Below are positions 3,562-60,190 of a DNA stretch of 64,000 nt, in pieces. A program made the translations under genes and the position numbers. The notes under the pieces are model-generated. The model had not been told where the DNA came from, made no database searches, and saw only the letters and a program-made list of their open reading frames with translations. Positions within the stretch are counted from its first letter, which is position 1, and each line of letters starts with the position of its first letter. Origin of the DNA: Andreprevotia lacus DSM 23236 (lineage in GTDB: Bacteria; Pseudomonadota; Gammaproteobacteria; Burkholderiales; Chitinibacteraceae); contig NZ_FWXD01000009.1 of assembly GCF_900176275.1 (NCBI RefSeq), positions 62,001-126,000 of the forward strand, given 5' to 3'.

Positions 3562-6030
3562 TTAATGGAGGACCACCGACACCGGCTTGCTGTAGTAATT
3601 GATGATCTTGTTCGCCAGCCAACCGTGGTCATCGGTGTTGCTGAAGTTCTTGATCACGTTGGTGGTATTGCCGCCGCCCCACAGGATGGAGAAGACATTG
3701 TTGCTGGCCGCCAGTGCCAGCTTGCCGTTGTCGATGCTCCAGTTGTAGTTGCCCGACTTGCCAGCGTATTCCAGCAGGTATTGCTGGTAGTTGGCGCTGC
3801 CGCTCAGGCAGTTGTAGGCCGCACTGCCGCACGAAACCTGGAAGCTGCCCACCGCGCTGTTGGCGTTGCTGCTGCTGGCGGTGCCCATGATCAGGTTGCT
3901 CAGGTTGGACGTTAGGTTGCTGTCGCCGAAGAAGTACACCGGCGCAGTGCTGAACACATAGCTGCCTGCAGTGCCCTGGAACAACTCGGGGTTGCTTTCC
4001 GAAGTGTTGGGCAGGTGCGAGCCGGGAATCTGCCACAACATCATTGGAATGTTGTTGTTGGCCTTGCTCACCTGGCCGACGGCGGTGAGGAAGTTATCCC
4101 ACGAGCGCGCGTTGTACAGCGTGGCCGAACCCGGCGCGGCGCTGTCGTCCATCTCGTAACGATCAAACAGGAAGAAGTCCGGGCTGGTGGCATTGCCGGT
4201 GGTGATGGTGCCCGGCGCGTTGGTCTTCAGCCAGTTGGAAACCGGTGTCGAGAAGGTCGACGCGATTTGCGCGTCGGTCAGCGTGTTGTGCAGCCAGAAG
4301 CCCGAGCCGATGGCCCACATGTTCTCCTGCCAGCCGAACGTCACCGTGTTCTTCGGTGCCAGGGTGCGGATCAGCCAGTTGTTGGCTTCCACCCAGCCCG
4401 CAAAGCCGGCGGCAAAGGTCGGGGTTGGATACGCGGCGGTGTCATAGGTCGGATTGCTGATGCAAGACTTGAACCACGCGCCCACCTGGCTATCCGTGCT
4501 GCCGGTGCCCACGGTGTTGCCGACGTTGGAGTTCCAGAACAGGTCGTTCTGGCCATCCACGCTCCATGCCGGGTAACCGTCATCCAGCATGTTCTGCAGG
4601 ATCTGCACCGGGTTGCCGGTATAGGTCTTGCCGATATAGGTGGCCTTGCCCACGCCGTTCGGATCACCGGTGTTGGTGTAGCTGCGGCTGGTGGTCATCA
4701 GACACATGGCTTGGGCCACGGCGGTATTCACCGCGCCGGCCGGCAGTGCGCTGTTCACCATGCTGATGTAGCTGTTCTGCTGGATGGCGCCGAGCAGGTC
4801 AGGATTCATCAGCAGTGAGCCGTAATAGCTGTTGCCGTTGTACGTCACCGGGCGGTAGCGCAGCATCAATGCATCGGCGGCCAGCGTGGAGAAGTGGCGG
4901 CCCATGATGTAGCTGGCCGTTGCCATGGCGCTGCTGGCGCCGGCGGGGGCGTTGGTGAAGTCGTCGACGTTCTGGCCGCCGCTCATTTGCGCGGTGTATT
5001 CGACGATGGCGACGCGCATCGGATGGTTGTTGATCGCGCTGAGCGCGGTCAGGTCACGGGTCATGCGGTAGGCGTTGCTCGGCGGGTCGATCACGCCCGG
5101 ATCACCGTTGCCGTTCACGCCGGCGTACTTGAAGACCACGTCGACCGGACGGCCGCCGAAGTCATCGTTGCCGCCGGTCGAGCTGGCAGTCGGTGTGGTG
5201 TTGTTCGGGCCACCAATCGCGCCTTGCGCAACGAAGGCCGGCCAGCCAGGCACCGAGCCACCGCTGATGATGGGCAACGGGGTGGGGCTGGGCGTCGGCG
5301 TTGCGCCCGGTGTCGGGGTCGCGGTGGTGCCCGGGACCGGTGTCGGCGTGGCGACGGTGCCGCTGCAGCTGCCCAGATCGGTCCAGGGCAGGCCGCTGCC
5401 GGCATTGGTATCAGGCTGATTGCCTTGCGTCCACCACTTGGCCTGATAGTTGCGGCCGTTGTAGCTCACTTGGGCGCCGCCCGAATAGGCGGTGCCACTG
5501 TTCCAGCTTGTCAGGCAGCCCGAGCCGGATGGCGTCGGTGTCGCGGTCGGTGCCGGCGTAGCCGTTGGCGCCGTGGTGGGGGTGGGGGTCGATGTCGGCA
5601 CAGGCGTGGTGGTCGGCTTGGGCGTTGCTGTCGGGCTTGGGGTTGCAGTGGCCGCCGGTGTCGGGGTCACGGTTGGCTTGGGGGTTGCGGTCGCTGCCGG
5701 TGTAGGCGTGGCCGTCGGAGCGGGTGTCGCGGTCGGCTTGGGCGTTGCCGTGGGGGCGGGTGTTGCGGTCGGGGCCGGCGTCGGTGTCGGCGTGCTGCCG
5801 CTGTCTACGCCCAGATAGGTCCACAGGCTGGCGGTGGTCGGGTTCCAGCCGGTGCTGCTGTAGTCGGTCTGATTGACGGTGGCCTTATAGTCGCCGCCGT
5901 TGTACGACACGATGGTGCCGGCGGTGTAGTAGGTATCGGCCTGCCATGCGGGGTAGGTGGCGGCCAGCGCATGGGCTGCCAGTAGCGCGGCAGGCAATGC
6001 CGCCAGCGCCTTGGGTATTGCACGATGCAT
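3562..6030 (-). CDS. Secreted CBM5/12 protein with unrecognised TIM-barrel-like catalytic module
   Basis: An 822-residue exoenzyme. A signal peptide (cleavage near AHALAA, residue ~24) is followed by a CBM5/12 chitin-binding module (~25-75, YPAWQADTYYTAGTIVSYNG), a long Pro-Thr-Ala linker, a second CBM5/12 (~172-225) and another linker. The C-terminal ~560 residues do not contain the GH18 DxxDxDxE motif or any GH19 signature I recognise. Strand-like segments ending in acidic residues recur: VVFKYAG, VAIVEYTAQ, LLMNPDLL, FGWQENMW, FLFDRYEMDD, MMLWQIPG and FSILWGGG. This resembles a (beta/alpha)8 glycosidase. The N-terminal module is nearly identical to those of the two downstream GH18 chitinases, so chitin or a chitin derivative is the likely substrate, but the catalytic family is not assigned. 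Confidence 0.72.
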   Translation of the reverse strand: MHRAIPKALAALPAALLAAHALAATYPAWQADTYYTAGTIVSYNGGDYKATVNQTDYSSTGWNPTTASLWTYLGVDSGSTPTPTPAPTATPAPTATPKPTATPAPTATPTPAATATPKPTVTPTPAATATPSPTATPKPTTTPVPTSTPTPTTAPTATPAPTATPTPSGSGCLTSWNSGTAYSGGAQVSYNGRNYQAKWWTQGNQPDTNAGSGLPWTDLGSCSGTVATPTPVPGTTATPTPGATPTPSPTPLPIISGGSVPGWPAFVAQGAIGGPNNTTPTASSTGGNDDFGGRPVDVVFKYAGVNGNGDPGVIDPPSNAYRMTRDLTALSAINNHPMRVAIVEYTAQMSGGQNVDDFTNAPAGASSAMATASYIMGRHFSTLAADALMLRYRPVTYNGNSYYGSLLMNPDLLGAIQQNSYISMVNSALPAGAVNTAVAQAMCLMTTSRSYTNTGDPNGVGKATYIGKTYTGNPVQILQNMLDDGYPAWSVDGQNDLFWNSNVGNTVGTGSTDSQVGAWFKSCISNPTYDTAAYPTPTFAAGFAGWVEANNWLIRTLAPKNTVTFGWQENMWAIGSGFWLHNTLTDAQIASTFSTPVSNWLKTNAPGTITTGNATSPDFFLFDRYEMDDSAAPGSATLYNARSWDNFLTAVGQVSKANNNIPMMLWQIPGSHLPNTSESNPELFQGTAGSYVFSTAPVYFFGDSNLTSNLSNLIMGTASSSNANSAVGSFQVSCGSAAYNCLSGSANYQQYLLEYAGKSGNYNWSIDNGKLALAASNNVFSILWGGGNTTNVIKNFSNTDDHGWLANKIINYYSKPVSVVLH

Positions 6031-6113
6031 ATCTCACTCCATTTTCTGTTTTTTGAATGGTTACTTCTGGCTTGGTTGCGACCCTGGCGCTGGCCTTGCG
6101 GCCGGGCACCAGC

Positions 6114-6146
6114 AAAAAGACCCCACCGGGTCGCAGTCCGGTGGGG
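6114..6146 (-). terminator. Rho-independent terminator of GH18 gene
   Basis: On the minus strand a stem of CCCCACCGG paired with CCGGTGGGG is followed by TCTTTTT. It lies about 150 bases after the stop of the 694-residue GH18 gene. A second GC-rich hairpin, without a T tract, lies at about 6190-6212. Confidence 0.75.
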
Positions 6147-6292
6147 CTAAGGAGACTTCCAGGCATGCCCGAAAGTTACGCTTCAAGGGTGGGGCCGGCC
6201 GAGACCGGCCCCGGCAGCTCGCAGGCAGAACCCGGTACTGCATTGCCGTCCAAGGTTTGTGAGTCCATCCGGCGGGGTTCTGCCCTTGACGC

Positions 6293-8377
6293 TTACTGAT
6301 TGACCGTGGCCATCGCGGCGGTCAGCGAGCCGGTTGCATCGTCACCATCCAGCTCCCAGCTGAAGATGCCGTTCAAACCCTTGCTCTTGACGTAGCTGGC
6401 CTTGGCTTGGATGTCGGCCGGGGTGTCGTACGACCAGAAGGTGCTGCCGTCATACTTCCACGATGCCTTGGCGGTGGCGTTGTAGTAGACCGTGCCGGCG
6501 GCGTTCTTCAGCACCTTGTAGTCCTCGATGCCTGCTTCGTAGGTGCCGGTGGCGGCCTTGGTGCCCGGTTGATACAGGCCGTTGTTGGTGCTCGACACAT
6601 TGGTCCAGCCACGGCCGTAGAACGGTACGCCCAGGTTGATCTTCGATGCCGGCAGGCCAGCAGCAAGCAACGCGGTAATGGCGTCGTCGATGTTGTAGCT
6701 GGCAAGGTCGCCACCTGCTGCCACGTTCGGGCTGGCCGGGTCCTTGTACAGATTGGCCTGGAAGTCGGTCACGGTGCCTGCGCCGACCGTGGTGCCGGTT
6801 TCCCATGCACCGTGGAAGTCGTAGCTCATCAGGTCAACCCAGTCGATGTACGGCGCGTACTTGGCCGGTTCGGTCTGGCGGATCTTGTCGGCGCCGGAGC
6901 CCACGGCCACAGTCAGCAGGTAGTGGCTGGCGCCATTGGCTGCGGCAGCAGCATCGAGCTGGGTGCGGAATTCCTGCATCAGCAAGGTGTAGTTCTGCTT
7001 GTCGGCCGCCGATACGGTGTTGTAGCCAACCCCCTGGATCACCGGGTATTCCCAGTCGATGGTCAGGCCGTCGAAGATGCCCTTGAGCGAGCCGGCGCCG
7101 CCGGTGTTGTTGGACGAATCCGCCGGATAGTTGCCGTTGATGTACAGGTCCACGCACGACGACACCAGCGCCTTGCGGCCTGCATCGGTGGCTGCTGCGG
7201 CCGAGAACCACTTCGACCAGGTCCAGCCGCCCAGCGCCATGGTGACCTTCAGGTTCGGATACTTCGCCTTCAGCTGCTTGAGCTGACCGAAGTTGCCGCG
7301 TACCGGGTTGCTCCACAGGTCTGCCACGCCGCTGACGGAGTTCGAAGCATCGAAGCTCTTCTGGATGTCGGCAAATGCATCGCCGCCATCACCGTTGCCG
7401 CTTTCGGTACGGGTGACATTGCCCTGGCACTTGTAGGTGCCGTCGGCCTGTTGATACACGTTGTTGAACGCGTACATCAGATAGCTCAGCTTGGCGGCCT
7501 GGCCCGAGGTATCGACGTTGCGCAGCATGTAGTTGCGGCCGTAGATGCCCCACTGCGCGAAGTAGGAGCCGATCTGCTTGCTGCCGGTGCTCGGTACAGG
7601 CGTTGCCGTGGGGGCCGGGGTCGCTGTCGGCGCCGGCGTGGCGGTCGGGCCGGACACTGGTGTCGGGGTCACGGTCGGTGCCGGCGTGGCCGTTGCGACC
7701 GGTGTCGGTGTTGCAGTGGGCTTGGGCGTTGCCGTCGCAGCCGGCGTCGGCGTGGCGGTCGGCGTGCTGCCGCCGCAAGCGCCCAGGTCGGTCCACGGCA
7801 GGCCGTCACCGGTGTTGGACGACGGGATATTGCCCTGGGTCCACCACTTGGCCTGGTAGTTGTGGCCGTTGTAGCTCACCTGAGCGCCACCCGAATAGGC
7901 GGTGCCGCTGTCCCACGTGGCATAGCAGCCCGAGCCGGCCGGTGTCGGTGTCACGGTCGGGGCCGGCGTTGCGGTTGGTGCGGTGGTCGGGGTCGGCGTG
8001 CTGGTCGGCACCGGCGTAGTGGTCGGCTTCGGTGTCGCGGTGGCTGCCGGTGTCGGCGTCGCGGTCGGCACCGGCGTCGAAGTCGGCTTGGGGGTGGCCG
8101 TGGCCGTCGGTGTGGCGGTCGGGGCAGGTGTCGGTGTTGGCGTGGTGCTGTCTACGCCGATGTAGGTCCACAGGCTGGCGGTGGTGGGGTTCCAGCCGGT
8201 GCTGGCGTAGTCGGTCTGGTTGACGGTGGCTTTATAGTCGCCGCCGTTGTAGGACACGATGGTGCCGGCGGTGTAGTAGGTATCGGCCTGCCAGGCCGGG
8301 TAGCTTGCGGCGAACGCATGGGTTGCCAGCAACGCTGCCGGAATGACGGCGAGTGCGAAGCGAGTCGATTGCAACAT
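6293..8377 (-). CDS. GH18 chitinase with two CBM5/12 modules, motif variant DGLTIDWE
   Basis: A 694-residue secreted chitinase: signal peptide (MLQSTRFALAVIPAALLATHAFAA), CBM5/12, Pro-Thr linker, second CBM5/12, linker and a C-terminal GH18 barrel (~residues 270-694). GH18 hallmarks include KVTMALGGWTWS, then FDGLTIDWEYP with catalytic Glu443, then YDFHGAWE and GVPFYGRGW. The usual DxxDxDxE pattern has Thr439 in place of the first Asp of the DxDxE core; Asp436, Asp441 and Glu443 remain. The N-terminal 0.78 kb is almost identical to the neighbouring GH18 gene. Upstream, at a fixed distance, lie a palindrome and a second motif shared with that gene. The start has a GGAG ribosome-binding site. 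Confidence 0.93.
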   Translation of the reverse strand: MLQSTRFALAVIPAALLATHAFAASYPAWQADTYYTAGTIVSYNGGDYKATVNQTDYASTGWNPTTASLWTYIGVDSTTPTPTPAPTATPTATATPKPTSTPVPTATPTPAATATPKPTTTPVPTSTPTPTTAPTATPAPTVTPTPAGSGCYATWDSGTAYSGGAQVSYNGHNYQAKWWTQGNIPSSNTGDGLPWTDLGACGGSTPTATPTPAATATPKPTATPTPVATATPAPTVTPTPVSGPTATPAPTATPAPTATPVPSTGSKQIGSYFAQWGIYGRNYMLRNVDTSGQAAKLSYLMYAFNNVYQQADGTYKCQGNVTRTESGNGDGGDAFADIQKSFDASNSVSGVADLWSNPVRGNFGQLKQLKAKYPNLKVTMALGGWTWSKWFSAAAATDAGRKALVSSCVDLYINGNYPADSSNNTGGAGSLKGIFDGLTIDWEYPVIQGVGYNTVSAADKQNYTLLMQEFRTQLDAAAAANGASHYLLTVAVGSGADKIRQTEPAKYAPYIDWVDLMSYDFHGAWETGTTVGAGTVTDFQANLYKDPASPNVAAGGDLASYNIDDAITALLAAGLPASKINLGVPFYGRGWTNVSSTNNGLYQPGTKAATGTYEAGIEDYKVLKNAAGTVYYNATAKASWKYDGSTFWSYDTPADIQAKASYVKSKGLNGIFSWELDGDDATGSLTAAMATVNQ
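7598..8377 (-). repeat. Duplicated N-terminal block (copy 1)
   Basis: This coding segment (signal peptide, CBM5/12, linker, CBM5/12, second linker) is nearly identical in DNA to 11038-11815. The similarity stops where the Pro-Thr linker passes into the different GH18 domains. It indicates recent duplication or gene conversion with module shuffling at the linker. Confidence 0.85.
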
Positions 8378-8556
8378 TCTAGTGATGCTCCATCCTTGGG
8401 TCGGTGCGTGTTGGTATTGTTAGGTGGTGCTCACTGGTCTTGGCGCAAAAGGACAAATCGTAATGCAGCGTACATTTTTTCGTCCTGGCCCGGAACAGCG
8501 GTTGCAGCCGCACAGGTCATGCAACGCTGCCTATTAGCGCCAATCGGAAAATCGCC

Positions 8557-8586
8557 GTCAAATATGTTGTGTATCAACAATTTGAC
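8557..8586. promoter_or_regulatory. Palindromic operator candidate, copy 1
   Basis: Imperfect inverted repeat: left arm GTCAAATATGTTG, right arm CAACAATTTGAC, centre TGTAT. It lies 179 bases upstream of the GH18 start at 8377. A matching site occurs 178 bases upstream of the other GH18 gene although the DNA between is not conserved. A regulator-binding site is the simplest reading. Confidence 0.55.
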
Positions 8587-8703
8587 ATACTACAGGCTAA
8601 CGAAAAAGCATCAAATTGGTACTACATACAACGGAGTGATTTGTATTTGTGCAGTGCAGAATATCGTGTAAGAAATTCATGAGAGTTGTGATGTGGTTGC
8701 AAA

Positions 8704-8717
8704 TGGACAAATGGTGC
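8704..8717. promoter_or_regulatory. Shared upstream motif TGGACAAATGGTGC, copy 1
   Basis: A 14-base motif lying 327 bases from the GH18 start. The second GH18 gene has TGGACAAATTGTGC at exactly the same 327-base offset. It may be a second binding site for the same control system. Confidence 0.4.
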
Positions 8718-8943
8718 GGTGCAAAATCATTATTTGTTGATGTAGTAATTGTTGCCGGAAACGGTATGAAAAATTGCGCTGGCATACAGGCTCCGCAGGC
8801 TGGGAAGTGTGTAGTTTTTGCGTCATGTCTGACCGGTGCCGCAGCTGCCCGCACTGTTGCCCGCCCGGCGTGACTTGGCCACGGGCGTGTCAGGCGGGCC
8901 TGCATGCCTTGGGCGGTCTGTACTGACCCATAAACTGGTCATG

Positions 8944-8972
8944 AAAAAGGGCAGACCTTGCGGCCTGCCCTT
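8944..8972 (-). terminator. Rho-independent terminator of second GH18 gene
   Basis: On the minus strand AAGGGCAGGCC pairs with GGTCTGCCCTT (one mismatch) around a short loop and is followed by TTTTT. It lies 32 bases beyond the stop codon of the 936-residue chitinase. Confidence 0.8.
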
Positions 8973-9004
8973 CAACCCGGTTCAGCCGGGAAGGTGTTAC
9001 TGGT

Positions 9005-11815
9005 TTACTTCACGCCAACCGGCAGATCCGGGTATTCCTGCGGCAGTGCGTACTTGGTGCCGCCGATGGTGATCTGGTAGTTGGACGGGCCGGAGATCGG
9101 CAGCTGGTAGTTCAGGGTCACGTCGATCGTGCCGCCCGGTGCCAGCGATTGCCAGCTCGGGATGGTGAATTGCGCGTGGTTGTAGTTGGCCGTGAAGCCG
9201 CCGATGTTGTTCGGACCACTGTAACCGGCGCTGGTCACCTTCAGCCCCACGCCCGACTGGTCGGTCATGGTGGACGGTGCCGATACCGGGTAGTCGAACT
9301 CGACCACGCTGCCGCCCGCAATGGTGGTTGCGGAGTTGTTGGTCAGTACCAGATGCGGGTTGATCGGGTAGTTCTGATCGCCCATCTTCCACTGGTTGAG
9401 TACAACCGACAGGTTGGCAGTGCTGGCCGGCATGGTGCCCTCGGCACGCTTGTTGCCATAGGCGCTGGCTGCCGTGAACTTGTTGAACAAGTCCGTGGTC
9501 AGCGTGGTGCCCATGAAGTACTCGCCCTTGCCGCCGTTCATGCTGGCGTTCCAGGCGTAGTCACCGGCCATTTCCCAGATCATTGCGCCGCCGATACCGT
9601 TGTTCACGATGTAATCGGCCTTGGCATTGATCGACTGCTCGGTTTCCACCGACAGGAAGACCTTCTTGGTGGCGTTCCACAGCCACGGTGCCACCAGCGT
9701 GCTGCTGTAGTTGGGCGCGTAAGTGCCGGTGATGGTCTTTTCCGTCACCTTGTAGGCATCAAGGTAGTCCGGAACGATACCGTTCTGCAGGTTCAGCGCG
9801 TGCCACAGCGGGTTGCCGCCGCCCGGTACCGGGTTCCCGGTGCTGTCGAGGTCATACCAGATGTTGTCGATGCCGACCGCGCCATCGCCGCAGCTGGCGA
9901 TGCCCTGGCATGTCACCGTCGAGCTGACCGTGGGCGAAGTGCCCCACAGGCCGTTGGTGCCGCCGGTCACGTTCTTCCAGCCACGGGTGTAGTACGGCAC
10001 ACCGACGTTGATGCGGCCGGCTTGCAGTGCGCCACGGTAGTAGCGGTACGCCCAGTCCACGTTCAGATAGCCGATGTTCTGGAACTGATACGCGCTGCCG
10101 GCCTTCAGCTCGGCATCGTTGCCGTCGTCAAACAGCGATGCGTTAGGGCCGACATACTGGTTCCACGCGCCGTGCAGGTCATACGACATCAGGCTGGCGT
10201 AGTCCAGGTATTGCAGCGAGGACATGTTTTCTTCGCCACGCAGGATCCAGCCCGATGCCGAACCGGCGATGGTCAGCATGTAGTACTTGTTGTCCTGCAC
10301 TGCGGCGGCATCCAGCTTCTGGCGCAGCGTCTTCATCAGCACGTTGTAGCTGGTCATCAGACCGGCCAGACGCGGCTGCGACAGGCTGAAGTCCAGCGGG
10401 TTACCCGCCTTGGCATTGGTGGTCGGGTGTTCGTAGTCGATATCCACGCCGTCGAAGAACGGGTACTGACGCAGGAAGGCGACGATGGAATCGGCCAGCG
10501 TGTTGATGCCCGCCGTGTTTACCGAGCCGTCGGCATTGGTGGTGGCGGTGTAGAAACCGGTGCCGCCAGCCCAGCCGCCGATCGACATCAGCACCTTCAC
10601 GCCCGGATGCAGCTTCTTCTGTTGTGCAAACAGGTTGAAGTGGCCCTTGTACGGCAGGCTGCTGTCCATGGTTACGCCAGCTACGGCCGGCTTGCCGTCG
10701 GAGCCATCCCACACCATGTCGGTATCGGCATTGCCGGCGCCCGAACCGATGGTGATCTTGTAGGTGTTCTGGTCAACCGCAGCAAACGCGTAGTTGATGT
10801 GCGATACCTTGTCCCACGGCAGGTTGTTCACCAGGAAGGCCGGGGTGCCATCCTTGCCGGTACGCCAGGTGGCGAAGTAACCGACGATACGGCGGTTCAG
10901 GCCGTTGGCCAGCACTTCGCGGCCGTTGGCGTCGTACACCTTGCAGTACGGCACGTTGCTTGCGCCGCTGGTCAAACCATCCGGACGGCAGTTGGTGCCC
11001 GGCACCGGGGTGGGGGCAGGTGTGGCGGTCGGCGCGGGCGTTGCCGTGGGGGCCGGGGTCGCTGTCGGCGCCGGCGTGGCGGTCGGGCCGGATACCGGTG
11101 TCGGCGTCACGGTCGGTGCCGGCGTGGCCGTTGCAACCGGGGTCGGTGTTGCAGTGGGCTTGGGTGTTGCCGTCGCAGCCGGTGTCGGCGTCGCGGTCGG
11201 TGTGCTGCCGCCGCAGGCGCCCAGATCGGTCCACGGCAGGCCGTCACCGGTGTTGGACGACGGGATATTGCCCTGGGTCCACCACTTGGCCTGGTAGTTG
11301 TGGCCGTTGTAGCTCACCTGAGCGCCACCCGAATAGGCGGTGCCGCTGTCCCACGTGGCATAGCAGCCAGAGCCGGCCGGTGTCGGCGTCACGGTCGGGG
11401 CCGGCGTTGCGGTTGGTGCGGTGGTCGGAGTCGGGGTCGACGTCGGAACGGGTGTCGAGGTCGGCTTCGGTGTCGCGGTGGCTGCCGGTGTCGGCGTAGC
11501 GGTCGGCACCGGCGTCGAAGTCGGCTTGGGAGTGGCCGTGGCCGTCGGTGTGGCGGTCGGGGCAGGCGTCGGTGTCGGCGTGGTGCTGTCTACGCCGATA
11601 TAGGTCCACAGGCTGGCGGTGGTGGGGTTCCAGCCGGTGCTGGCGTAGTCGGTCTGGTTGACGGTGGCTTTATAGTCGCCGCCGTTGTAGGACACGATGG
11701 TGCCGGCGGTGTAGTAGGTATCAGCCTGCCAGGCCGGGTAGCTTGCGGCGAACGCATGGGTTGCCAGCAACGCAGCCGGAATGACGGCGAGTGCGAAGCG
11801 AGTCGATTGCAACAT
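9005..11815 (-). CDS. GH18 chitinase with two CBM5/12 modules and C-terminal beta-sandwich
   Basis: A 936-residue secreted chitinase. The start at 11815 (MLQSTRF) is chosen over an upstream Met because it begins the signal peptide and has GGAG before it. The order is signal peptide, CBM5/12, linker, CBM5/12, linker, GH18 barrel with canonical FFDGVDIDYEHP (catalytic Glu462), SIGGW and YDLHGAWN. A C-terminal ~130-residue domain (from about NLSVVLNQWKMG to the end) resembles a CBM2-type immunoglobulin-like sandwich, but its family is uncertain. It forms a pair with the 694-residue enzyme: identical targeting and binding modules, different barrels, suggesting complementary action on chitin. Confidence 0.93.
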   Translation of the reverse strand: MLQSTRFALAVIPAALLATHAFAASYPAWQADTYYTAGTIVSYNGGDYKATVNQTDYASTGWNPTTASLWTYIGVDSTTPTPTPAPTATPTATATPKPTSTPVPTATPTPAATATPKPTSTPVPTSTPTPTTAPTATPAPTVTPTPAGSGCYATWDSGTAYSGGAQVSYNGHNYQAKWWTQGNIPSSNTGDGLPWTDLGACGGSTPTATPTPAATATPKPTATPTPVATATPAPTVTPTPVSGPTATPAPTATPAPTATPAPTATPAPTPVPGTNCRPDGLTSGASNVPYCKVYDANGREVLANGLNRRIVGYFATWRTGKDGTPAFLVNNLPWDKVSHINYAFAAVDQNTYKITIGSGAGNADTDMVWDGSDGKPAVAGVTMDSSLPYKGHFNLFAQQKKLHPGVKVLMSIGGWAGGTGFYTATTNADGSVNTAGINTLADSIVAFLRQYPFFDGVDIDYEHPTTNAKAGNPLDFSLSQPRLAGLMTSYNVLMKTLRQKLDAAAVQDNKYYMLTIAGSASGWILRGEENMSSLQYLDYASLMSYDLHGAWNQYVGPNASLFDDGNDAELKAGSAYQFQNIGYLNVDWAYRYYRGALQAGRINVGVPYYTRGWKNVTGGTNGLWGTSPTVSSTVTCQGIASCGDGAVGIDNIWYDLDSTGNPVPGGGNPLWHALNLQNGIVPDYLDAYKVTEKTITGTYAPNYSSTLVAPWLWNATKKVFLSVETEQSINAKADYIVNNGIGGAMIWEMAGDYAWNASMNGGKGEYFMGTTLTTDLFNKFTAASAYGNKRAEGTMPASTANLSVVLNQWKMGDQNYPINPHLVLTNNSATTIAGGSVVEFDYPVSAPSTMTDQSGVGLKVTSAGYSGPNNIGGFTANYNHAQFTIPSWQSLAPGGTIDVTLNYQLPISGPSNYQITIGGTKYALPQEYPDLPVGVK
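11038..11815 (-). repeat. Duplicated N-terminal block (copy 2)
   Basis: Near-identical partner of 7598-8377, covering the signal peptide, both CBM5/12 modules and linkers. The linkers themselves are low-complexity tandem repeats coding for PTATPAP-type units, a likely substrate for recombination. Confidence 0.85.
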
Positions 11816-11993
11816 TGGGATTGCTCCATCCTTGGTTGGTGTCACGCCCTGTGTGGTCCGGGCGCGCTTTGCTTTGCTGGTTGTCTTGCGACAAGGCGTG
11901 GCTGCGTGGAAGTGATTGCTGCTCACGCCGGGCCAGCCGTTGCCACCGCGTGCGGCAGCAACATTGCGTATTTATGGCGGTGGATGAATGACC

Positions 11994-24201: not shown

Positions 24202-25011
24202 TTAACGCAGCAGCGACAGAACCTGACCGGCCGATGCATTGGCCTGTGCCCGCACGGCCAGATCGGCCTGATTGCGGATTTGCGACTGGATCAAGGTCGA
24301 GCTGGCGCTGGCGTAGTCGGTATCACCGATGCGGCTCTTGGCGGCAGAGAGGTTCTCGTTGCTGGTCAGCAGATTGTTGGCGCTGGCGCTCAGGCGGTTG
24401 CTGATGGCACCCAAGGTGGCGCGGCTGCTGTTGATGCTGGTGACGTCGTTATCCAGCGCTGAAATGGCGTTGCCGGCCGATGTCGGGCTGGACAGGTCGA
24501 GCGTGCCGCTGGGGCTGGACAGCGAATTCAGGCTGGTGCCGGGTATGGCAATGGTTTCGTTGGCATTGGCGCCTGCTTGCAGCGTAAAGCCGTTGCCTTG
24601 CAGCAGTTGCTGGCCGTTGAACTGCGTATTCTTGAGGATGTCCTGGCTCGATTGCGACAGTGCATCCGATTGCGCCTGCAGTGCCGCGCGGTCTTCCGGC
24701 GACAGCGTGCTGTTGCCGGCGGCCACGGCCAGCGTGCGCTGGTCGATGGCGTTGTCGGACAGCTGCGACAACGCGCCGTCGGCCACCTGGGTGAGCGAGA
24801 TGCCGTCCGACAGATTGCGCACCGCCTGGCCGTTGCCGGCGATCTGCGCGGCAAACTGCTGGATGATGGCCGAGCCGGCCGCGTCATCGGCCGCGCTGTT
24901 CACGCGCTTGCCGCTGGATAGCTGGTTCAGCGTGCGGTTGAGCGTGTCGGTGTTGCGGTTGGCGGGTACGCTCGAAAGCGTGTTGGCATTGTTGCCGATG
25001 GAGGAAATCAT
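24202..25011 (-). CDS. Short orphan flagellin-like protein
   Basis: A 269-residue protein with the flagellin N-terminal D0/D1 signature (LNRTLNQLSSGKRVNSAADDAAGSAI) and C-terminal helix (STLIQSQIRNQADLAVRAQANASAGQVLSLLR). The variable D2/D3 region is absent. The start MISSIGNNAN at 25011 has GGGGC-type sequence upstream; an in-frame Met seven codons earlier is less likely. There are no flagellar genes nearby. It is isolated between terminators, between accC and prmA. It may be a minor filament subunit or a non-motility secreted protein. Confidence 0.85.
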   Translation of the reverse strand: MISSIGNNANTLSSVPANRNTDTLNRTLNQLSSGKRVNSAADDAAGSAIIQQFAAQIAGNGQAVRNLSDGISLTQVADGALSQLSDNAIDQRTLAVAAGNSTLSPEDRAALQAQSDALSQSSQDILKNTQFNGQQLLQGNGFTLQAGANANETIAIPGTSLNSLSSPSGTLDLSSPTSAGNAISALDNDVTSINSSRATLGAISNRLSASANNLLTSNENLSAAKSRIGDTDYASASSTLIQSQIRNQADLAVRAQANASAGQVLSLLR

Positions 25012-25114
25012 GGGGGCCTCCCCGTCCTGCATTGATACGTCAGCCTCCAGCTTACGCCCGGAGTTTCAGCATCCGCTAATCTAGATGACGAATGGCGCCC
25101 GCCCGCCGCGCATT

Positions 25115-48728: not shown

Positions 48729-50579
48729 TTATTGCAACTGCACGTTGGTGGTGGCGGCAAAGCTGCTGCCCAACGTGGTTTCCAGGTTGCCGATGGCCGC
48801 TTCCAGAACGCCGAAGATCTGGGCGCGCTGTGCCGCATTGCTCAGGTCCAGCGTGGCCGATGCGGCAACGCCCTTCTGCGCCAGTGCGGCGTTGAACGCA
48901 GCCTGCGCCTGCGCCACGGTAATGTATTGCGACTGGCTGCTGCTGGTGGGATAGGCCAGCGTCGCAAACACCTTGCCGAATACCGTGGACAGGTTGCCCA
49001 TGTTGAATGCGACATGGATGTTGGCATTACCGAAGGTGGTGGCACTGCTGGTCGGGATCGGGTTGCCGTAGAACTGGTCGAGGTAGTAGCGCACCTGATA
49101 CGGATACTGCTCGTAGGTGTCCTTGCTGCCCCAGACCGAGCTATAGGCGTTGACCTGATTTACCGTGGCGGTGGTCGCCGTGGCGCCCAGATGACTGTAG
49201 CTCTTCATCAGGGTGCCATAGTAGCCCTGGTTGTAAGCCACGTTCAGCATCACATCCAGGAAACTACCCGGCAGGGTCTTGAAGTTGACCAGCGCATTGT
49301 CGTAATCAGGTTGCCACGGCGTAGTCCAGCCCCCGGTGCCCTTGCCGATGGCGGAGAGCGAGATCATGTCGAGATAGTGGAAGTAAGCCGTCACCACCGG
49401 GCTGTAGTACTTGTTGTTGAACGACGGTGGCGTGACCTTGGTGTTCTGCGTTGGCGCCTCGGCCATGGTGTAGCCGATGTTCTTCTGCAGCGCGATGAAG
49501 TTGACCAGCGAATGGCCGCCCGGCGTATAGCTGCCGTTTGCCATGTCTGCCGCGTAGTTGTTGATCTGGTAGGGACCGCCCTGGCCGCCGCCCATCACGG
49601 CCTGTTGATCGGGCGACGAATCAATCAGGTCGCTGCTCGACTTGTACAGCTGGGTCGCCAGGTTTTCCTGCAGCAGCTGGCCGAGCACCGAGCCGTACAG
49701 ATAATCCTTGTTGTACTGGATGCCCGGGTAGGCGCTTTCTACCAAGTGGCCGTACATCACGCCGGCGATCATGTTGGACATGATGAGGTCGGTGTAGTTG
49801 TCGCCATCCAGTGTCATGCTGTCTTGCGCCGTGCTGGCGCCCAGCAACAGGTGGAAGTTGAGCGTGCCGCTGCTGACCACGCCGGACGGATTCGGCGTCG
49901 GCGTCACGCCCGGCACCGGGGTGGCAGTCGGTGTGCTGGTCGGGACCGGGGTTGCGGTCGGCTTCGGTGTGGCGGTAACCACCGGGGTCGGCGTGGTCGG
50001 GGCGGGGGTTGCCGTCGGGCCGCAGGTGCCGTTGTCGGTCCAGGGCAGACCATCACCGGTGCTGCTGGACGGTATATTGCCTTGCGTCCACCACTTGGCG
50101 GTGTAGGTGTGGCCGTTGTAGCTCACCTGTGCGCCGCCGCTGTACGCGGTGCTGCTGTTCCAGGCCGCAGCACTGCAGCTGCCGGCAGCCGGTGTCGGCG
50201 TGGCAGTCGGCACCGGGGTACTGCTGGGCTTGGGTGTGGCCGTCGGTGTGCTGGTCGGCGCCGGTGTGGCTGTCGGGGCAGGGGTTGCCGTCGGCTTGGG
50301 TGTTGCCGTGGGGGCAGGAGTCGGGCTGCTGCCGGTATCGGCGCCAAGGTCTTGCCACAGTGTTGGCGTGGTCGACGGCGTCCAGCCGGCGCCGGTATAG
50401 GCGGTATGTGTGACAAGGGCTTTGTAGTCGTGGCCGTTGTAAACCACGATGGTGCCGGCGGTATACGTCGTGCCCTCGGCCCAGGCCGGGTAGGCTGCGT
50501 GGGCTGCAATCGAGCTTGCCAGCAGCACAGCCGCCAGCAGACCCGACATGCGCGCATAAGCGCGGGTGCGTGGGTGCAT
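48729..50579 (-). CDS. Secreted CBM5/12 protein with unrecognised lysozyme-like catalytic module
   Basis: A 616-residue exoenzyme: signal peptide (LLAAVLLASSIAAHA), CBM5/12 (YPAWAEGTTYTAGTIVVYNG), Pro-Thr linker, second CBM5/12 with YTAKWWTQGN, linker and a ~370-residue C-terminal module. That module has no GH18 motif. Its central part, VMYGHLVE...LLQENLATQLY then GGGQGGPYQINNYA, recalls the helix-Glu-then-strand layout of lysozyme-like folds (GH19/GH23/GH46 superfamily), with Glu candidates in those helices. The family is not assigned. Start has GGAGG. A probable chitin or chitosan or peptidoglycan hydrolase. Confidence 0.72.
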   Translation of the reverse strand: MHPRTRAYARMSGLLAAVLLASSIAAHAAYPAWAEGTTYTAGTIVVYNGHDYKALVTHTAYTGAGWTPSTTPTLWQDLGADTGSSPTPAPTATPKPTATPAPTATPAPTSTPTATPKPSSTPVPTATPTPAAGSCSAAAWNSSTAYSGGAQVSYNGHTYTAKWWTQGNIPSSSTGDGLPWTDNGTCGPTATPAPTTPTPVVTATPKPTATPVPTSTPTATPVPGVTPTPNPSGVVSSGTLNFHLLLGASTAQDSMTLDGDNYTDLIMSNMIAGVMYGHLVESAYPGIQYNKDYLYGSVLGQLLQENLATQLYKSSSDLIDSSPDQQAVMGGGQGGPYQINNYAADMANGSYTPGGHSLVNFIALQKNIGYTMAEAPTQNTKVTPPSFNNKYYSPVVTAYFHYLDMISLSAIGKGTGGWTTPWQPDYDNALVNFKTLPGSFLDVMLNVAYNQGYYGTLMKSYSHLGATATTATVNQVNAYSSVWGSKDTYEQYPYQVRYYLDQFYGNPIPTSSATTFGNANIHVAFNMGNLSTVFGKVFATLAYPTSSSQSQYITVAQAQAAFNAALAQKGVAASATLDLSNAAQRAQIFGVLEAAIGNLETTLGSSFAATTNVQLQ

Positions 50580-55234: not shown

Positions 55235-55484
55235 GGGGGGAGTGTAGCAGCAGGATGCCGGACTGCTGCCGGCGGCGCTGTTTTTTGCCCTTGAGTGTTG
55301 CGCATCGGATGCCCATGGCGGTGTATCGGCGTGATTGCGCTTTTTTTACGGAACGAATACATCGCGCAGCGTTACCTGACGTTACAATTGGCGCCCGCTG
55401 ATCGCCTCGCCGCGCATCAGGCCCCAAGCCATGATGAAGTGGGCCCCATGTGGGAAACGCGTCTATTCAATACCAGGCCTCAGG

Positions 55485-56828
55485 ATGAGCGATCCGATAT
55501 TCGTTGCAACACCGCTGCCGCAGCTGCAGCGGGATTTACTGGCCGCAGCCGGAAGCCCGCCCCTTTTGCAGGCTTATCTGGAAAGGTTGCAGCAGCTGCG
55601 CGATGCCGCGCAGTTCGACGCCTTGCGGCAGGCCGCGCAATGGCTGTGCACGCATTTCCCGGCCTGTGCGCCCGGCTGGGGCTGGCTGGCGCGCGCCTGT
55701 ATCGCGCTGGGTGAGACCGGGGCCGCATTGGGAGCGCTTGATGCGCCTTCGCTGGCGATGGCGCCACAGCACTATCTGCAATGCTGGCGTGGTGAGCTGT
55801 GTCTGGAGATCGGTGCGCTGGATCGCGCCGCCGATGCACTCACGCGTGCACTATCGGTTGCGGATGACGCTTTGCTGCCCAAGATCAAATATCACTGGCA
55901 ACGTCTGCTCTGGCTGGGCGTGGCCCATGGCTATCGGGATGCTGCCATTTCCTACGCCACCCGGCTGCGGCAGGCCTATCCGCATGACGCCTGCTGGCCG
56001 CATATCCTCTGCTCCGCTTACCAGGACAGTGGCGAGATCGCTGGCGCATTCCAGCAGGGCAGACAGGCTGTGGCGCTGTATCTGGATGGTGTGGCCGATG
56101 CCGGGCCACTGGATGTGCATGCGGTGCCGCATTTCGTGCGCCCCGAGGCCGAAGCCATCCTCGACAGGGTGCGGGCGGCGCTGGATGCGGCGGGAATTCA
56201 ATGGTGCCTCTACGCCGGCACCTTGCTGGGCGTGATACGCGATGGCGAATTGCTAGCGTATGACAAGGATCTCGATATCGCCATTCCCGCTGCAAGCAGC
56301 CGGGATGCCGTGATCGAAACCATGCGGCTTGCGGGCTTCCAAGCGGTGCCCGAAGGCGCAAATCCAGGCGAAGAGATGGCGTGGCGCATCATCTTCGCCA
56401 CGCCGGATTCACCGATTTCGCTCGACGTGTTCTTCATTCATCCCGACGGGGACGAGCATGTACGGCTGGGCATGCAGCATGCCGGTCACCCTGTACGCTG
56501 CCGCCTGCCCCGCTTTGACTTCGGCCTGCATGACTGGCGCAACTCGCTCTGGCCTGTACCGGCTGACCCGGCCGCTTTCTTGCTCAGCTTCTACGGCGAT
56601 GGCTGGCGCGAGCCCGACCCTTACTTCAACACCGTGCTGTCCAACCGGGGCCGCACCGCAGCGTCGATACCCGTGGTGCTGGGCTATGGCTACGGCTGCC
56701 TGTACCGGGCCCTGCTGGCAGAAAAATACGCCAAGGCGCTGTCGCTGTGCGCGCAAATCCAGCGCCTGCAGCCCGATCCGCTGTTAGACAGACTGGCGGG
56801 TGAATTGCGGGCCAGACAAGCGGCATGA
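55485..56828 (+). CDS. LicD-domain protein with TPR-like N-terminus
   Basis: A 447-residue cytoplasmic protein. The first ~200 residues are helical, with TPR-like repeats (WGWLARACIALGETGAALGAL). Then a LicD/nucleotidyltransferase-like domain: WCLYAGTLLGVIRDGELLAYD followed by KDLDIAI, the acidic metal-binding site, and SLDVFFIHPDGD. LicD proteins transfer phosphorylated groups such as phosphocholine or phosphoribitol to glycans. The stop overlaps the next start (ATGA). I prefer ATG 55485; an upstream Met at 55431 is possible. First gene of the RLP cluster. Confidence 0.75.
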   Translation: MSDPIFVATPLPQLQRDLLAAAGSPPLLQAYLERLQQLRDAAQFDALRQAAQWLCTHFPACAPGWGWLARACIALGETGAALGALDAPSLAMAPQHYLQCWRGELCLEIGALDRAADALTRALSVADDALLPKIKYHWQRLLWLGVAHGYRDAAISYATRLRQAYPHDACWPHILCSAYQDSGEIAGAFQQGRQAVALYLDGVADAGPLDVHAVPHFVRPEAEAILDRVRAALDAAGIQWCLYAGTLLGVIRDGELLAYDKDLDIAIPAASSRDAVIETMRLAGFQAVPEGANPGEEMAWRIIFATPDSPISLDVFFIHPDGDEHVRLGMQHAGHPVRCRLPRFDFGLHDWRNSLWPVPADPAAFLLSFYGDGWREPDPYFNTVLSNRGRTAASIPVVLGYGYGCLYRALLAEKYAKALSLCAQIQRLQPDPLLDRLAGELRARQAA

Positions 56829-57490
56829 ACAGTGGACTGGACGACACGCTCAGCATCGTCATTGCTGCAGCGGGGGATGGCGCCCGCCTGGGTCTCGGCC
56901 CCAAGGCACTGCTGCCACTGGGCGGCAGGATGCTGCTGGAGGCTGTATGCACCAAGGCGCGCCGGATCGCAGGCGAAGTCATGGTCGCCGCGCCCGCCAG
57001 CCGCATGGCGGAGTGGCAGCGGCATGCCACAGGCTGCGCGGTGATTGCCGGGGGCGAGAGTTTTTTGCGCACCACCGCATCGCTGGCGCAGGCGGCAAGC
57101 CGGCGCAAGTTGCTGGTGTGGAGCGTGGCAGCACCCTTCGTGAGCGAACCGGTGCTGCGCCGCGTTGCTGCCGGGGTGCCGGAGGGCGGGGTTTGCGCGG
57201 TATTACAGCCCAGCGACGTACCGCTGGCCGCCATGCAAGATGGCGCGGTGCGCGAATTCCTGCCGCGCGATGCGGTCATGGCCGTGCAGGGGCCGCAGGC
57301 CTATGATCGTGCCGCGCTGCTTGATCTGATCGCACGGGCCACCGATGCGGACTGGCAGCAGCAGTCATTCCTGCAGGTTGCCCTGCGCCACGGGCAGCCC
57401 GTCGCCACCGTCATGGGCGAGAAAACCAATTTCAAGATCACTACGCCGGACGATTGGCGTCTGGCGCAATACCTGAAGGATTTGCTATGA
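56825..57490 (+). CDS. IspD-like nucleotidyltransferase
   Basis: A 221-residue GT-A-fold transferase. The NTP-binding loop IVIAAAGDGARLGLGPKALL and the C-terminal EKTNFKITTPDDWRLAQYL match IspD/TarI-type cytidylyltransferases, which make CDP-methylerythritol or CDP-ribitol. The core IspD residues are only partly conserved, so this is likely a specialised CDP-sugar or CDP-polyol synthetase rather than the housekeeping enzyme. Overlaps LicD and RLP genes by 4 bases each, showing translational coupling. Confidence 0.78.
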   Translation: MNSGLDDTLSIVIAAAGDGARLGLGPKALLPLGGRMLLEAVCTKARRIAGEVMVAAPASRMAEWQRHATGCAVIAGGESFLRTTASLAQAASRRKLLVWSVAAPFVSEPVLRRVAAGVPEGGVCAVLQPSDVPLAAMQDGAVREFLPRDAVMAVQGPQAYDRAALLDLIARATDADWQQQSFLQVALRHGQPVATVMGEKTNFKITTPDDWRLAQYLKDLL

Positions 57491-58743
57491 GTTCGGCCGG
57501 CCTGTTGGTCGCGCGTGACCCGGCGCTGTATGCGTGGGACGACGCGTTGCGCGAGCAGGATTATCTGTTTGCCTGTTATGAAATCACCACCACGGTGGAT
57601 GGCCACGCGGCCGCGCTGGGCATGGCCATGGAGCAAAGTGCCGCCACCAGCCATATTGCCGGCTATGTCGAGCCGACCATGCTGCTTGGCTACAGCATCC
57701 GCGTGCGGATGGTGCGATCCCTGGGGCAGGCCGTGCCCGTGGTGGGCAGCTATCAACTGGATACGCCGGTTTACGGTGCCGCAGCCGGTGCCGGTGCGCA
57801 GCGCTATCAAATCGAGCTGGCCGTGCCGCTGCGCCTGCTGGCCGGCAAACCGGCGCAGTTGTGGAACGTGGTGGTGGGCGAGCTGCCCAGGCTGGGCTAT
57901 CTGACCGGCTTTGCCTTGCTGCGCGCTGATCTGCCCGCCAGCTTCGGCCCCGGCCCGGGCTTTGGTGCCGAGGCACTGCTGGCATGGTCTGCGCATGGCG
58001 CGGGCCCGCTGCTGTGCCGCTCGATGCGGCCTGCCGTGGGCGTGGACGAGGCAACCATGGCGCGCCTCAATCATGACGTGTTGCTGGGCGGTTTCGACAT
58101 CGTCAAGGATGACGAACTGCAGGTGTTTGCCGACTTTGCCACCTTTGCCAGCCACGTGCGCGCCATGCTGGTGGCGCGCGACGCTGCCAGCGCGGCAACG
58201 GGTCTGCGCAAACGCTATATCGCCAACCTGATCTGCGAGCCGTGGGAGCTGGCCGAGCGTTGGGCACTGGTGTGCGAGCTCGGGGTCGATGGCGTGCTGG
58301 TGGCACCGTGGATACAGGGCATGGGCACGTTGCTGCAGCTGGCACGCCAGCGCCGCATGCCGATACTGGCGCACAACACGCTGGGCGAACTGTTCTCGCG
58401 CAATCCGGGTTGGCGCGTGGCACCCGCCGTGCTGGCACAGTGGCTGCGCGTGCTGGGGGCCGACCTGATCGTGACCGACGGGGACTTTGGCGATACACCG
58501 GGCGATGCCGACGCGCAGGCCGCGCTGGCCGCAGCGCGTGCGCCGCAGGGCGAATGCCGGGCGGTCCTGCCCATCCTGCAGGGGGGCAAGCAACCCGATG
58601 GCCTGCCGCGCTATCGCGCAGCGATCGGCAGTGATGCCTACATGCTGATCGTGGCCAGCTGGGTGGATCATCATCCGGACGGTATCGCCACGGCCGCAGC
58701 GCAGTTCCGGGCCGCTGTGGATGGACAGCCCGCAGCGGGGTGA
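57487..58743 (+). CDS. RuBisCO-like protein (form IV type)
   Basis: A 418-residue member of the RuBisCO large-subunit superfamily. The N-terminal domain ends in WNVVVGELPRLG, then FGPGPGFGAEALL, as in RuBisCO. The barrel has a variant of KPKxGL as RPAVGV (catalytic Lys replaced by Arg181) and keeps the activation site GGFDIVKDDEL (Lys207, Asp209, Glu210; the 26-residue spacing to Arg181 is conserved). AHNTLGELFSRNP retains a His at 296. The loop-6 region (TDGDFGDTPG) has no lysine. Carboxylase activity is therefore excluded; an enolase, isomerase or related enediol reaction is likely. Context points to glycan precursor synthesis. Confidence 0.85.
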   Translation: MSSAGLLVARDPALYAWDDALREQDYLFACYEITTTVDGHAAALGMAMEQSAATSHIAGYVEPTMLLGYSIRVRMVRSLGQAVPVVGSYQLDTPVYGAAAGAGAQRYQIELAVPLRLLAGKPAQLWNVVVGELPRLGYLTGFALLRADLPASFGPGPGFGAEALLAWSAHGAGPLLCRSMRPAVGVDEATMARLNHDVLLGGFDIVKDDELQVFADFATFASHVRAMLVARDAASAATGLRKRYIANLICEPWELAERWALVCELGVDGVLVAPWIQGMGTLLQLARQRRMPILAHNTLGELFSRNPGWRVAPAVLAQWLRVLGADLIVTDGDFGDTPGDADAQAALAAARAPQGECRAVLPILQGGKQPDGLPRYRAAIGSDAYMLIVASWVDHHPDGIATAAAQFRAAVDGQPAAG

Positions 58744-58825
58744 ACGGGCTCAGGCAGCTCAGCTTGGGTCGGGCCGGCCTGCACTGCTAGGATGGGCGCA
58801 TTGCCATCTTCAGGAAGTCGCTACC

Positions 58826-60190
58826 GTGTCGAGCAATCAGGCGCTGGCCGAAGCGTTGTTTTTCGAAGGAAACCGCCATCTGGCCGCTGCCGAGCATGCC
58901 GCAGCGGCGGCCTGCTTTCGCGAGGCGGTCACGCTGGCGCCACAGCTGGCCGAGGCGCATGCCAATCTGGGCTTTTTGCTGGAACAGACCGGCCAGCTGG
59001 ACGAGGCCGAAGCCTGCTACCGTCAGGCCATGGCCATCCTGCCCGACTGCCTGCAGCTGTATCTGAATCTGGGGGCGCTGCTGATGGCGCGCAAGGATTT
59101 TGGCGCGGCGGAGGCGCTCTACCGGCAGGCGCTGCGTTTTGCGGCGGGCGATCCGGCGCTGTGGTCCAACCTGGGCGTGCTGCTGGCCTGCCTGCAGCGC
59201 GACGACGAGGCCGAGCAATGCCATCGCACCGCGCTGGCCATCAACCCGGACTACGCCAATGCGCGTTTCAACCTTGCCTATGTGCTGCTGCGGCATGGTC
59301 GCTTTGACGAGGGCTGGGCAAGCCTGGAGGCACGCGACTGGTACGAGCGGCTGGCACAGTATTTCGAATTTCCGCGCTGGCAGGGTGAACCACTGGCGGG
59401 CCGCAGCGTGCTGATCGGCTTCGAGGCTGGCCATGGTGACATGATCCAGTTCTGCCGCTATGCCGCCGAACTCAAGCGCATGGGGGCCGAGCAGATCACC
59501 GTGGTGTGCCACCCGGGGCTGAAAACGCTGTTCGGCAGCATGATTGGGGTCGACGAGGTCTATTCCTTGCACGACGACGTGCCGACGCGCGGCTGGGATT
59601 ACTGGACACCGCCGCTCAGCCTGCCGTACTACTGCCAGACCCGTCTGGATACCATTCCGGCAACGGTGCCGTATCTGCAGGCCGAACCCGCGCGCGTGGC
59701 CGCATGGGCCACGCGGCTGCCGGCGGCAAGGTTGCGCGTGGGTCTGGCCTGGCTGGGCAATCCGCGTTTCGAGAACGATGCCGATCGCTCATTGTCCGCG
59801 CTGGATATCCTCGCGCCGCTGGCCGCCGTGCCGGGTATACAGTTCATCAGCCTGCAAAAAGGCCGGGGAGAGGATGTGTCAGCCCCGATTGGCATGGCAT
59901 TGCAATCGTATGCCGGTGAGCTGGGCGACTTTGCCGATACCGCCGCACTGATTGCCAATCTTGATCTGGTGATCAGCGTCGATACCGCCGTCGGCCATCT
60001 GGCCGGCGCGCTGGGCAAACCGTGCTGGCTGATGCTGCCCGACTACCGTGCCGACTGGCGCTGGCTGACCGGGCGTGATGATACGCCGTGGTATCCGCAC
60101 ACCCGGCTGTTCCGCCAGCCGCCGGGTGGCGGCTGGGGGCCGGTGGTAACGCAGCTGGCCGAGGCACTCGGCCAGCTGGCTGCCCGCTGA
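58826..60190 (+). CDS. TPR protein with GT9-like glycosyltransferase domain
   Basis: A 454-residue protein. The start is GTG at 58826, with AGGAAG 8 bases upstream. Residues ~1-180 contain five TPRs (AEAHANLGFLLEQTGQLDEA, LYLNLGALLMARKDFG). The C-terminal half has a GT-B-type fold related to ADP-heptose:LPS heptosyltransferases: VLIGFEAGHGDMIQFCRYA, RVGLAWLGNP, FISLQKGRGED and DLVISVDTAVGHLAGALGKP. Relatives take part in surface or flagellar glycosylation. It is 82 bases after the RLP gene and the last gene of the cluster. It converges on the AhpD-like gene 3 bases later. Confidence 0.85.
   Translation: MSSNQALAEALFFEGNRHLAAAEHAAAAACFREAVTLAPQLAEAHANLGFLLEQTGQLDEAEACYRQAMAILPDCLQLYLNLGALLMARKDFGAAEALYRQALRFAAGDPALWSNLGVLLACLQRDDEAEQCHRTALAINPDYANARFNLAYVLLRHGRFDEGWASLEARDWYERLAQYFEFPRWQGEPLAGRSVLIGFEAGHGDMIQFCRYAAELKRMGAEQITVVCHPGLKTLFGSMIGVDEVYSLHDDVPTRGWDYWTPPLSLPYYCQTRLDTIPATVPYLQAEPARVAAWATRLPAARLRVGLAWLGNPRFENDADRSLSALDILAPLAAVPGIQFISLQKGRGEDVSAPIGMALQSYAGELGDFADTAALIANLDLVISVDTAVGHLAGALGKPCWLMLPDYRADWRWLTGRDDTPWYPHTRLFRQPPGGGWGPVVTQLAEALGQLAAR

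Follow-up and report, generated by a model that had tools for sequence, protein, structure and literature searches.

A divergent RuBisCO-like protein with conserved IspD-like and LicD-type partners in Andreprevotia lacus: a candidate system for CDP-linked phosphate transfer

Introduction

What might a RuBisCO-like protein (RLP) be doing beside a LicD-type phosphotransferase and a cytidylyltransferase resembling IspD? The question is raised by a locus of Andreprevotia lacus DSM 23236 contained in a stretch of 64,000 nucleotides (contig NZ_FWXD01000009.1, positions 62,001-126,000; hereafter the window, to whose positions its coordinates refer). The RLP functions known to us are the salvage of sulfur, salvage linked to isoprenoids and the breakdown of sugar acids, and the full-text open-access literature yielded no paper naming an RLP together with LicD, or a RuBisCO-like protein together with a cytidylyltransferase. 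The initial annotation of the locus described a cluster of four genes, the fourth encoding a tetratricopeptide repeat (TPR) protein with a glycosyltransferase family 9 (GT9)-like C-terminus (TPR-GT), and assigned all four to the making and attaching of an activated phosphorylated group. We report here that the conserved unit comprises three genes, not four, and propose, with a probability that we put at roughly 0.6, that this module makes a phosphorylated unit X activated as its cytidine diphosphate (CDP) derivative, from which X-phosphate is passed to a cell-envelope acceptor.

A conserved unit of three genes

The RLP of the window makes up a clade with six others, those of loci L002, L003, L004, L038/L042 (genome G951), L039/L043 (genome G794) and L041/L044 (genome G1368), the last three being referred to below by their second numbers. 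In the window, L003, L004, L042 and L044 the RLP gene follows an IspD-like gene, itself preceded by a LicD-type gene (cut by the contig end in L003), and in L043 the order is PF04464 protein, IspD-like protein, RLP; in L002 the contig ends before this first position, leaving five LicD-type genes and one PF04464 gene there. In 7/7 loci the IspD-like gene, or in L002 its remnant, shares four bases with the RLP gene, and the transferase and IspD-like genes overlap by 4 bases in the window, L044 and L043, by 8 in L003 and L004, and by 1 in L042. The remnant in L002 (positions 170-335) is an IspD-like pseudogene with its middle deleted, lying directly before an intact RLP gene and consisting of a 25-residue, N-terminus-like stretch that holds a stop, plus, in a different frame, the final 29 residues. 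Neither the IspD-like nor the LicD-type profile matched anything at E ≤ 1e-3 in the 23 other RLP loci (L005-L022 and L029-L033), whose flanks mostly measure about 1.5 kb. The recurrence of these neighbours with RLPs in other genomes, which the initial annotation had taken as decisive for its pathway idea, is thus borne out across the clade. By eye, the module lies between groEL-like and phytoene-desaturase-like genes in L004 and L042, two loci from one order.

The fourth gene behaves differently. Homologues of the TPR-GT (E ≤ 1e-40) are present in 24 of the 43 genomes of the family, the window's included, and the RLP in just one of them. When compared with the six other clade loci, which span 3.4-20 kb each, the GT part of the protein gives no match at E ≤ 1e-3, and its TPR part weakly matches the TPRs of the LicD-type genes. 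Four 18 kb regions around TPR-GT homologues contain no match to the LicD-type, IspD-like or RLP genes, and none to any of 12 genes other than the TPR-GT at the right-hand end of the window (E ≤ 1e-8 for 11 of them). Being frequent in the family without an RLP and showing no linkage to it in either set of regions, the TPR-GT is rejected as a member of the module, although the pathway may make use of it in this host. The idea of making and attaching an activated phosphorylated group accordingly survives for the LicD-type, IspD-like and RLP genes, and the PF04464 replacement in L043 fits it, but it loses the TPR-GT. A chance neighbourhood of all four genes would agree with the commonness of the TPR-GT and with the occurrence of the module in 1 of the 43 family genomes; for the first three genes it is contradicted by the recurrence of their order, with overlapping frames, in at least two orders (the one containing Rhodocyclaceae, and Lysobacterales), and we consider it extremely improbable.

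The RLP lies outside the named families tested

Membership of the window RLP in the RuBisCO superfamily, i.e. its being an RLP in the wide sense, follows from a match to Pfam RuBisCO_large (PF00016; 69.3 bits, cut-off 30.1) and from its fold: an AlphaFold model built from four sequences (predicted local distance difference test (pLDDT) 70.8, predicted template modelling score (pTM) 0.67) retrieved RuBisCO-fold chains with Foldseek, the best being 1tel (TMq 0.77, E 1.9e-25). Its NCBIfam scores, in turn, all fall far under the cut-offs of the families named. An identity as MtnW (2,3-diketo-5-methylthiopentyl-1-phosphate enolase) is rejected on scores of 77.8 bits (cut-off 409) and 55.5 bits (cut-off 513.6), and one as OiaX or another acid-sugar RLP on 68.4 bits (cut-off 700); the protein also lies outside both of these clades.

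Among 32 RLP and RuBisCO rows placed in a tree, the seven proteins form one clade (100/99), whose stem measures 1.74 changes per site. The RLP of L005 is sister to it (93/91), followed by form IV-Photo, comprising 1tel/1ykw (Chlorobium tepidum) and 2qyg (Rhodopseudomonas palustris), and MtnW and the acid-sugar RLPs are placed across the midpoint root. In an earlier 24-row tree a clade of four was firm (100/100) and its joining with L005 and IV-Photo weak (56/23). Both trees have long branches, with few reference structures in the panel and neither form I nor form II RuBisCO; L009 was omitted from the 32-row tree for its long branch, and L015, L017 and L019 were never in the panel. The acid-sugar rows were assigned by similarity, two of them also by four-carbon acid sugar kinase neighbours, rather than by assay. 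The clade also lies outside the 100/100 clade of 1tel and 2qyg, and IV-Photo membership is rejected with it. Grouping of the RLP with an MtnW or isoapionate type, which in the initial annotation would have spoken against a new pathway, is not what the tree displays, and we conclude that the window RLP belongs to no named RLP family tested.

Two other RLPs deserve mention. That of L005 (G053:C3, 1453-2793) was first taken for a member of the clade (183 bits) and then rejected because it lies outside the clade and has different neighbours; it is a distinct RLP encoded, as judged by eye, between glyceraldehyde-3-phosphate dehydrogenase-like and aldo/keto-reductase-like genes on a 4.5 kb contig, with an Asn at R295 and a GGK stretch in common with the clade. 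In L032 (Mariluticola halotolerans plasmid NZ_CP090961, 1-4729) the RLP gene comes after mtnK, mtnA and a pair of genes whose annotations name a DXS N-terminal and a transketolase C-terminal domain, and the operon looks like one leading from salvage to isoprenoids.

A kept metal site in a rebuilt pocket

Active-site residues were compared in an alignment to RuBisCO chain 2cwx, tabulated for the seven members and 12 other rows, with residues numbered as in spinach RuBisCO. K201, D203, E204 and H294, which are K207, D209, E210 and H296 in the window RLP, are kept in all seven. K175 is replaced by Arg in 7/7 members and in 0/12 other rows, R295 by Asn (six) or Gln (one), H327 by Val (six) or Met (one) and S379 by Gln (six) or Ala (one); K334 is lost in all seven, and G403/G404 read SW, QW or TA. 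A new Lys following GG (K368) is present in 7/7 members and, among the other rows, only in L005, and N123 is Glu in six of the seven, as it is in L005 and the IV-Photo rows. Membership among the RuBisCO carboxylases is rejected, K175 being replaced and R295, H327, K334, S379, G403 and G404 lost in every member. We read this pattern as an intact metal-carbamate enolising site within a rebuilt substrate pocket; since the metal site is kept and the usual phosphate-binding residues are lost, the RLP probably acts on a new substrate.

The metal site and the RuBisCO fold are common to the clade and to the known families, from which it nevertheless differs in several respects. IV-Photo RLPs give the best profile and fold matches, stand on the same side of the drawn tree and share the Glu at N123 with six members; they have GGSD and GRG where the clade has [QA]GGK and A[SQT][WA], and the clade is set apart by its separate stem, by the Arg in place of K175 and by different gene neighbours. 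MtnW differs in scores and clade, and no methionine-salvage neighbours were noticed by eye at the clade loci. The acid-sugar RLPs keep H327, K334 and R295 in the four rows shown, all of which are lost in the clade.

Could the RLP be a relic, or serve the pathway structurally or in regulation rather than as an enzyme? The many replaced catalytic residues and the retention of the RLP in L002 next to a wrecked IspD gene would suit such a role. The invariant K207, D209, E210 and H296 argue otherwise, as does the RLP's ratio of nonsynonymous to synonymous substitution rates (dN/dS), which lies at 0.17-0.26 between three related loci; the corresponding values are 0.13-0.33 (IspD) and 0.20-0.44 (LicD), and selection on the RLP and on IspD is purifying. 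Moreover, MtnW also lacks several RuBisCO residues and is an active enzyme nonetheless, according to PMC6302742. A non-enzymatic role is therefore quite unlikely. The departures in L002 (Lys at E132, Ala at E49) would fit decay of its module, for which this single metagenome-assembled genome (MAG) is the source.

The IspD-like protein is not the host's canonical IspD

The second protein of the window module matches PF01128 with 74.6 bits (cut-off 27) and TIGR00453 with 92.4 bits; four relatives scanned with the latter model (L004 left out) score 115-138 bits, all short of the cut-off of 181.3. Assignment to the IspD family thus holds at the Pfam level, and equivalence to the methylerythritol phosphate (MEP) pathway cytidylyltransferase is rejected. 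A canonical IspD is encoded elsewhere in the same genome (221 bits).

These scores bear on an isoprenoid or methionine-salvage side route, in which the RLP would yield a 1-deoxypentulose phosphate and the IspD-like protein would serve as a second MEP cytidylyltransferase. That the second gene of the module belongs to the IspD family is in keeping with it. Against it are the canonical IspD of the host, the 92-138 bits of the five proteins scanned, and the third partner, LicD or PF04464, neither of which is known as an isoprenoid enzyme; in addition, no mtn- or dxs-like genes were noticed in the neighbourhoods, which were read by eye with no search made for them. We regard this route as very unlikely.

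A profile of six IspD-like proteins, applied to 289 genomes from a single order, detected members (E ≤ 1e-35) in 3, exactly the three RLP carriers; as these three contributed to the profile and match it by construction, the informative part of the result is the 0/286 among the other genomes.

LicD-type proteins and their replacement by PF04464

The LicD-type protein of the window matches Pfam LicD (PF04991) with 22.6 bits, exactly the cut-off, over 34 residues, and carries the motif GTLLGVIRDG...DKDLDIAI; with the DxD-type motif of the family in the form DKDLD, we assign it to LicD on a weak match. Its gene is the sole PF04991 match in the genome and is alignable with the LicD-type neighbours of the other RLPs. 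Whole-genome scans with the model found exactly one place each in G000, G790, G791, G951 and G1368, in every case next to the RLP (in G1368 under the cut-off), and no match in G789, the genome of L002, or in G794, the PF04464 genome. The model does overlook second LicD-like genes, so further ones could escape it likewise: adjoining the module in L004 (775-2196) and L042 (7541-8860) is a second TPR-LicD-like gene with the motif RKDIDI, undetected by Pfam LicD at E ≤ 0.05.

In L043, the locus of the most divergent clade member, the place of LicD is taken by an unrelated protein of family PF04464 (CDP-glycerol:poly(glycerophosphate) glycerophosphotransferase; 67.5 bits, cut-off 22.1). In line with the family name, PF04464 proteins perform the same chemistry as LicD-domain proteins, from CDP-glycerol or CDP-ribitol. 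An exchange of LicD for PF04464 around a constant IspD-RLP pair argues for the pair as the source of a CDP-linked alcohol phosphate, whichever family transfers it, and this swap of transferase families is the best evidence that the module makes CDP-X and transfers X-phosphate.

A putative CDP-polyol phosphotransferase system

The proposed pathway would run in three steps. The RLP, as an enzyme dependent on Mg2+ and a carbamylated lysine, would enolise a sugar-phosphate-like substrate, and the ensuing isomerisation or epimerisation (or, less likely, decarboxylation) would give X-phosphate or its direct precursor. The IspD-like enzyme would then convert X-phosphate and cytidine triphosphate (CTP) to CDP-X and pyrophosphate, and the LicD-type protein, or PF04464 in one lineage, would move X-phosphate from CDP-X to the acceptor as a phosphodiester. 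From the protein families we infer that the module works as a CDP-polyol phosphotransferase system; the same status applies to the carbamate, to what X and its acceptor are, and to the envelope location.

The first step draws on the chemistry of described RLPs, for which PMC6302742 gives the tautomerisation of methionine salvage and the decarboxylation of 3-oxo-isoapionate-4-phosphate, its reference list also naming an isomerisation. Analogy with these reactions makes an enolisation-based isomerisation or epimerisation the most likely way in which the RLP would produce X-phosphate. Alternatively, it may act downstream, modifying CDP-X or the transferred group (e.g. by epimerisation or decarboxylation) or recycling X-phosphate. 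The RLP gene is always the last of the three, and the replacement of the residues that hold the two phosphates of RuBisCO substrates would fit a phosphate located elsewhere, as in a nucleotide-linked substrate. Gene order does not fix reaction order, however, and all characterised RLPs known to us use small phosphorylated sugars, as PMC6302742 partly documents; we deem a downstream role unlikely.

Several observations weigh against the proposed synthesis and transfer of X-phosphate. In L002 the RLP persists beside a wrecked IspD gene, which may mean that it has some use alone or that the lineage is decaying. The LicD scores are weak, passing the cut-off in 4 of the 5 LicD-type genomes, with the G951 protein doing so only with its neighbours in frame (20.1 bits in the protein scan), and the structure model of LicD (pLDDT 50.4) was too poor to be used. 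In the window IspD-like protein the motif HDxARP, kept in the canonical IspD and in four of the five intact relatives (the fifth has LDIARP), reads WSVAAP through several base changes, alone among the seven aligned sequences; R21, K27 and K204 are invariant in all seven, the window included, but given the lost motif the activity of this protein is not certain. A kinase, reductase or exporter shared across the loci was not noticed when neighbours were read by eye with no profile search, and the known members are seven only.

A rare and patchy distribution

A scan of genome contigs with window-RLP patterns recovered three RLPs at 56-58% identity, those of L002, a Rhodocyclaceae MAG, and of L003 and L004, both Lysobacterales MAGs; some clade RLPs are found in named beta- and gammaproteobacterial MAGs. 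In the order of L004, 3 of 299 genomes were positive (its own, G951 and G794), and in that of L002, 2 of 300 (its own and G1368). Within families, the only carriers were the window's own genome (1/43) and G794 itself (1/10). Samples of the class (369 genomes) and the phylum (398) yielded no further clade member at E ≤ 1e-30; matches occurred in 6 and 12 genomes, the other 5 and 11 of which hold other RLPs, whose exclusion from the clade is based on scores and, in 15 of the 18 other loci, on the trees as well. Among viral contigs, 132 pattern matches included no relative. Plasmids returned only distant RLPs, all below 60% identity, with 31.5% the highest value in the matches listed (11 of 11; 12 of 301), and no match to an IspD-like member at E ≤ 1e-12. 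The clade is thus rare and patchy, a distribution that fits horizontal transfer.

Layout of the A. lacus locus

The coordinates (table 1) confirm the four co-directional genes of the initial annotation, with ATGA at the LicD/IspD-like and IspD-like/RLP junctions and a gap of 82 bases before the TPR-GT gene. An alternative in-frame ATG at 55431 is possible for the LicD-type gene. The TPR-GT matches Pfam Glyco_transf_9 with 26.4 bits (cut-off 22), in addition to TPRs. The G+C content of the three module genes is 66.2%, compared with 63.3% for the window. A promoter scan found 0 sites against 0.9 expected, and there were 7 terminator-like sites against 3.2 expected.

Table 1. Genes of the cluster in the window.
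Feature	Position	Strand	Product and basis of annotation
LicD-type phosphotransferase gene, TPR-like N-terminus	55485..56828	+	447 aa; Pfam LicD; comparison with relatives
IspD-like cytidylyltransferase	56825..57490	+	221 aa; PF01128; paralogue of the genome's canonical IspD
RuBisCO-like protein (RLP)	57487..58743	+	418 aa; RuBisCO_large; separate clade; metal site K207/D209/E210 kept
TPR protein with GT9-like C-terminus (TPR-GT)	58826..60190	+	454 aa, GTG start; TPRs and Glyco_transf_9

Elsewhere in the window, 30 kb off the cluster, a gene that by eye looks flagellin-like from its start (24202-25032) encodes a conceivable candidate acceptor. Three long adjacent open reading frames on the minus strand (3562-11926) have, by eye, a near-identical stretch close to their starts, and a gene resembling them, with CBM5/12 domains, lies at 48729-50579.

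Known systems and implications

The closest parallels combine the same kinds of enzymes. The mammalian ISPD with FKTN/FKRP, which synthesise CDP-ribitol and transfer ribitol-phosphate, and the bacterial TarI/TarJ with their teichoic-type transferases resemble the module in joining an IspD-family cytidylyltransferase to a LicD-domain or PF04464 phosphotransferase, and the pair FKTN and FKRP is mirrored by the two LicD-type genes of L004 and L042; the module differs from all of them in the TPR repeats of its LicD-type proteins. PMC4873967 describes ISPD as the source of the CDP-ribitol used by FKTN and FKRP, both LicD-domain proteins, and the CDP-ribitol enzyme of many bacteria as a fusion with a D-ribulose-5-phosphate reductase that makes D-ribitol-5-phosphate. 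Where those bacterial enzymes have a reductase fusion, the module has an RLP gene in the next place.

We regard it as evenly balanced whether this new RLP branch is a dedicated biosynthetic enzyme for an undescribed phosphorylated sugar or polyol, which CTP would activate and which transferases of LicD or teichoic-acid type, one replacing the other, would attach to the envelope. With only three genes in the module, in vitro assays offer a direct way to look for X. If the proposal is true, synthesis of CDP-activated groups would extend the range of reactions ascribed to the RuBisCO fold; it would also point to an undescribed phosphodiester decoration and place an RLP in envelope assembly, rather than in carbon fixation, salvage or catabolism.

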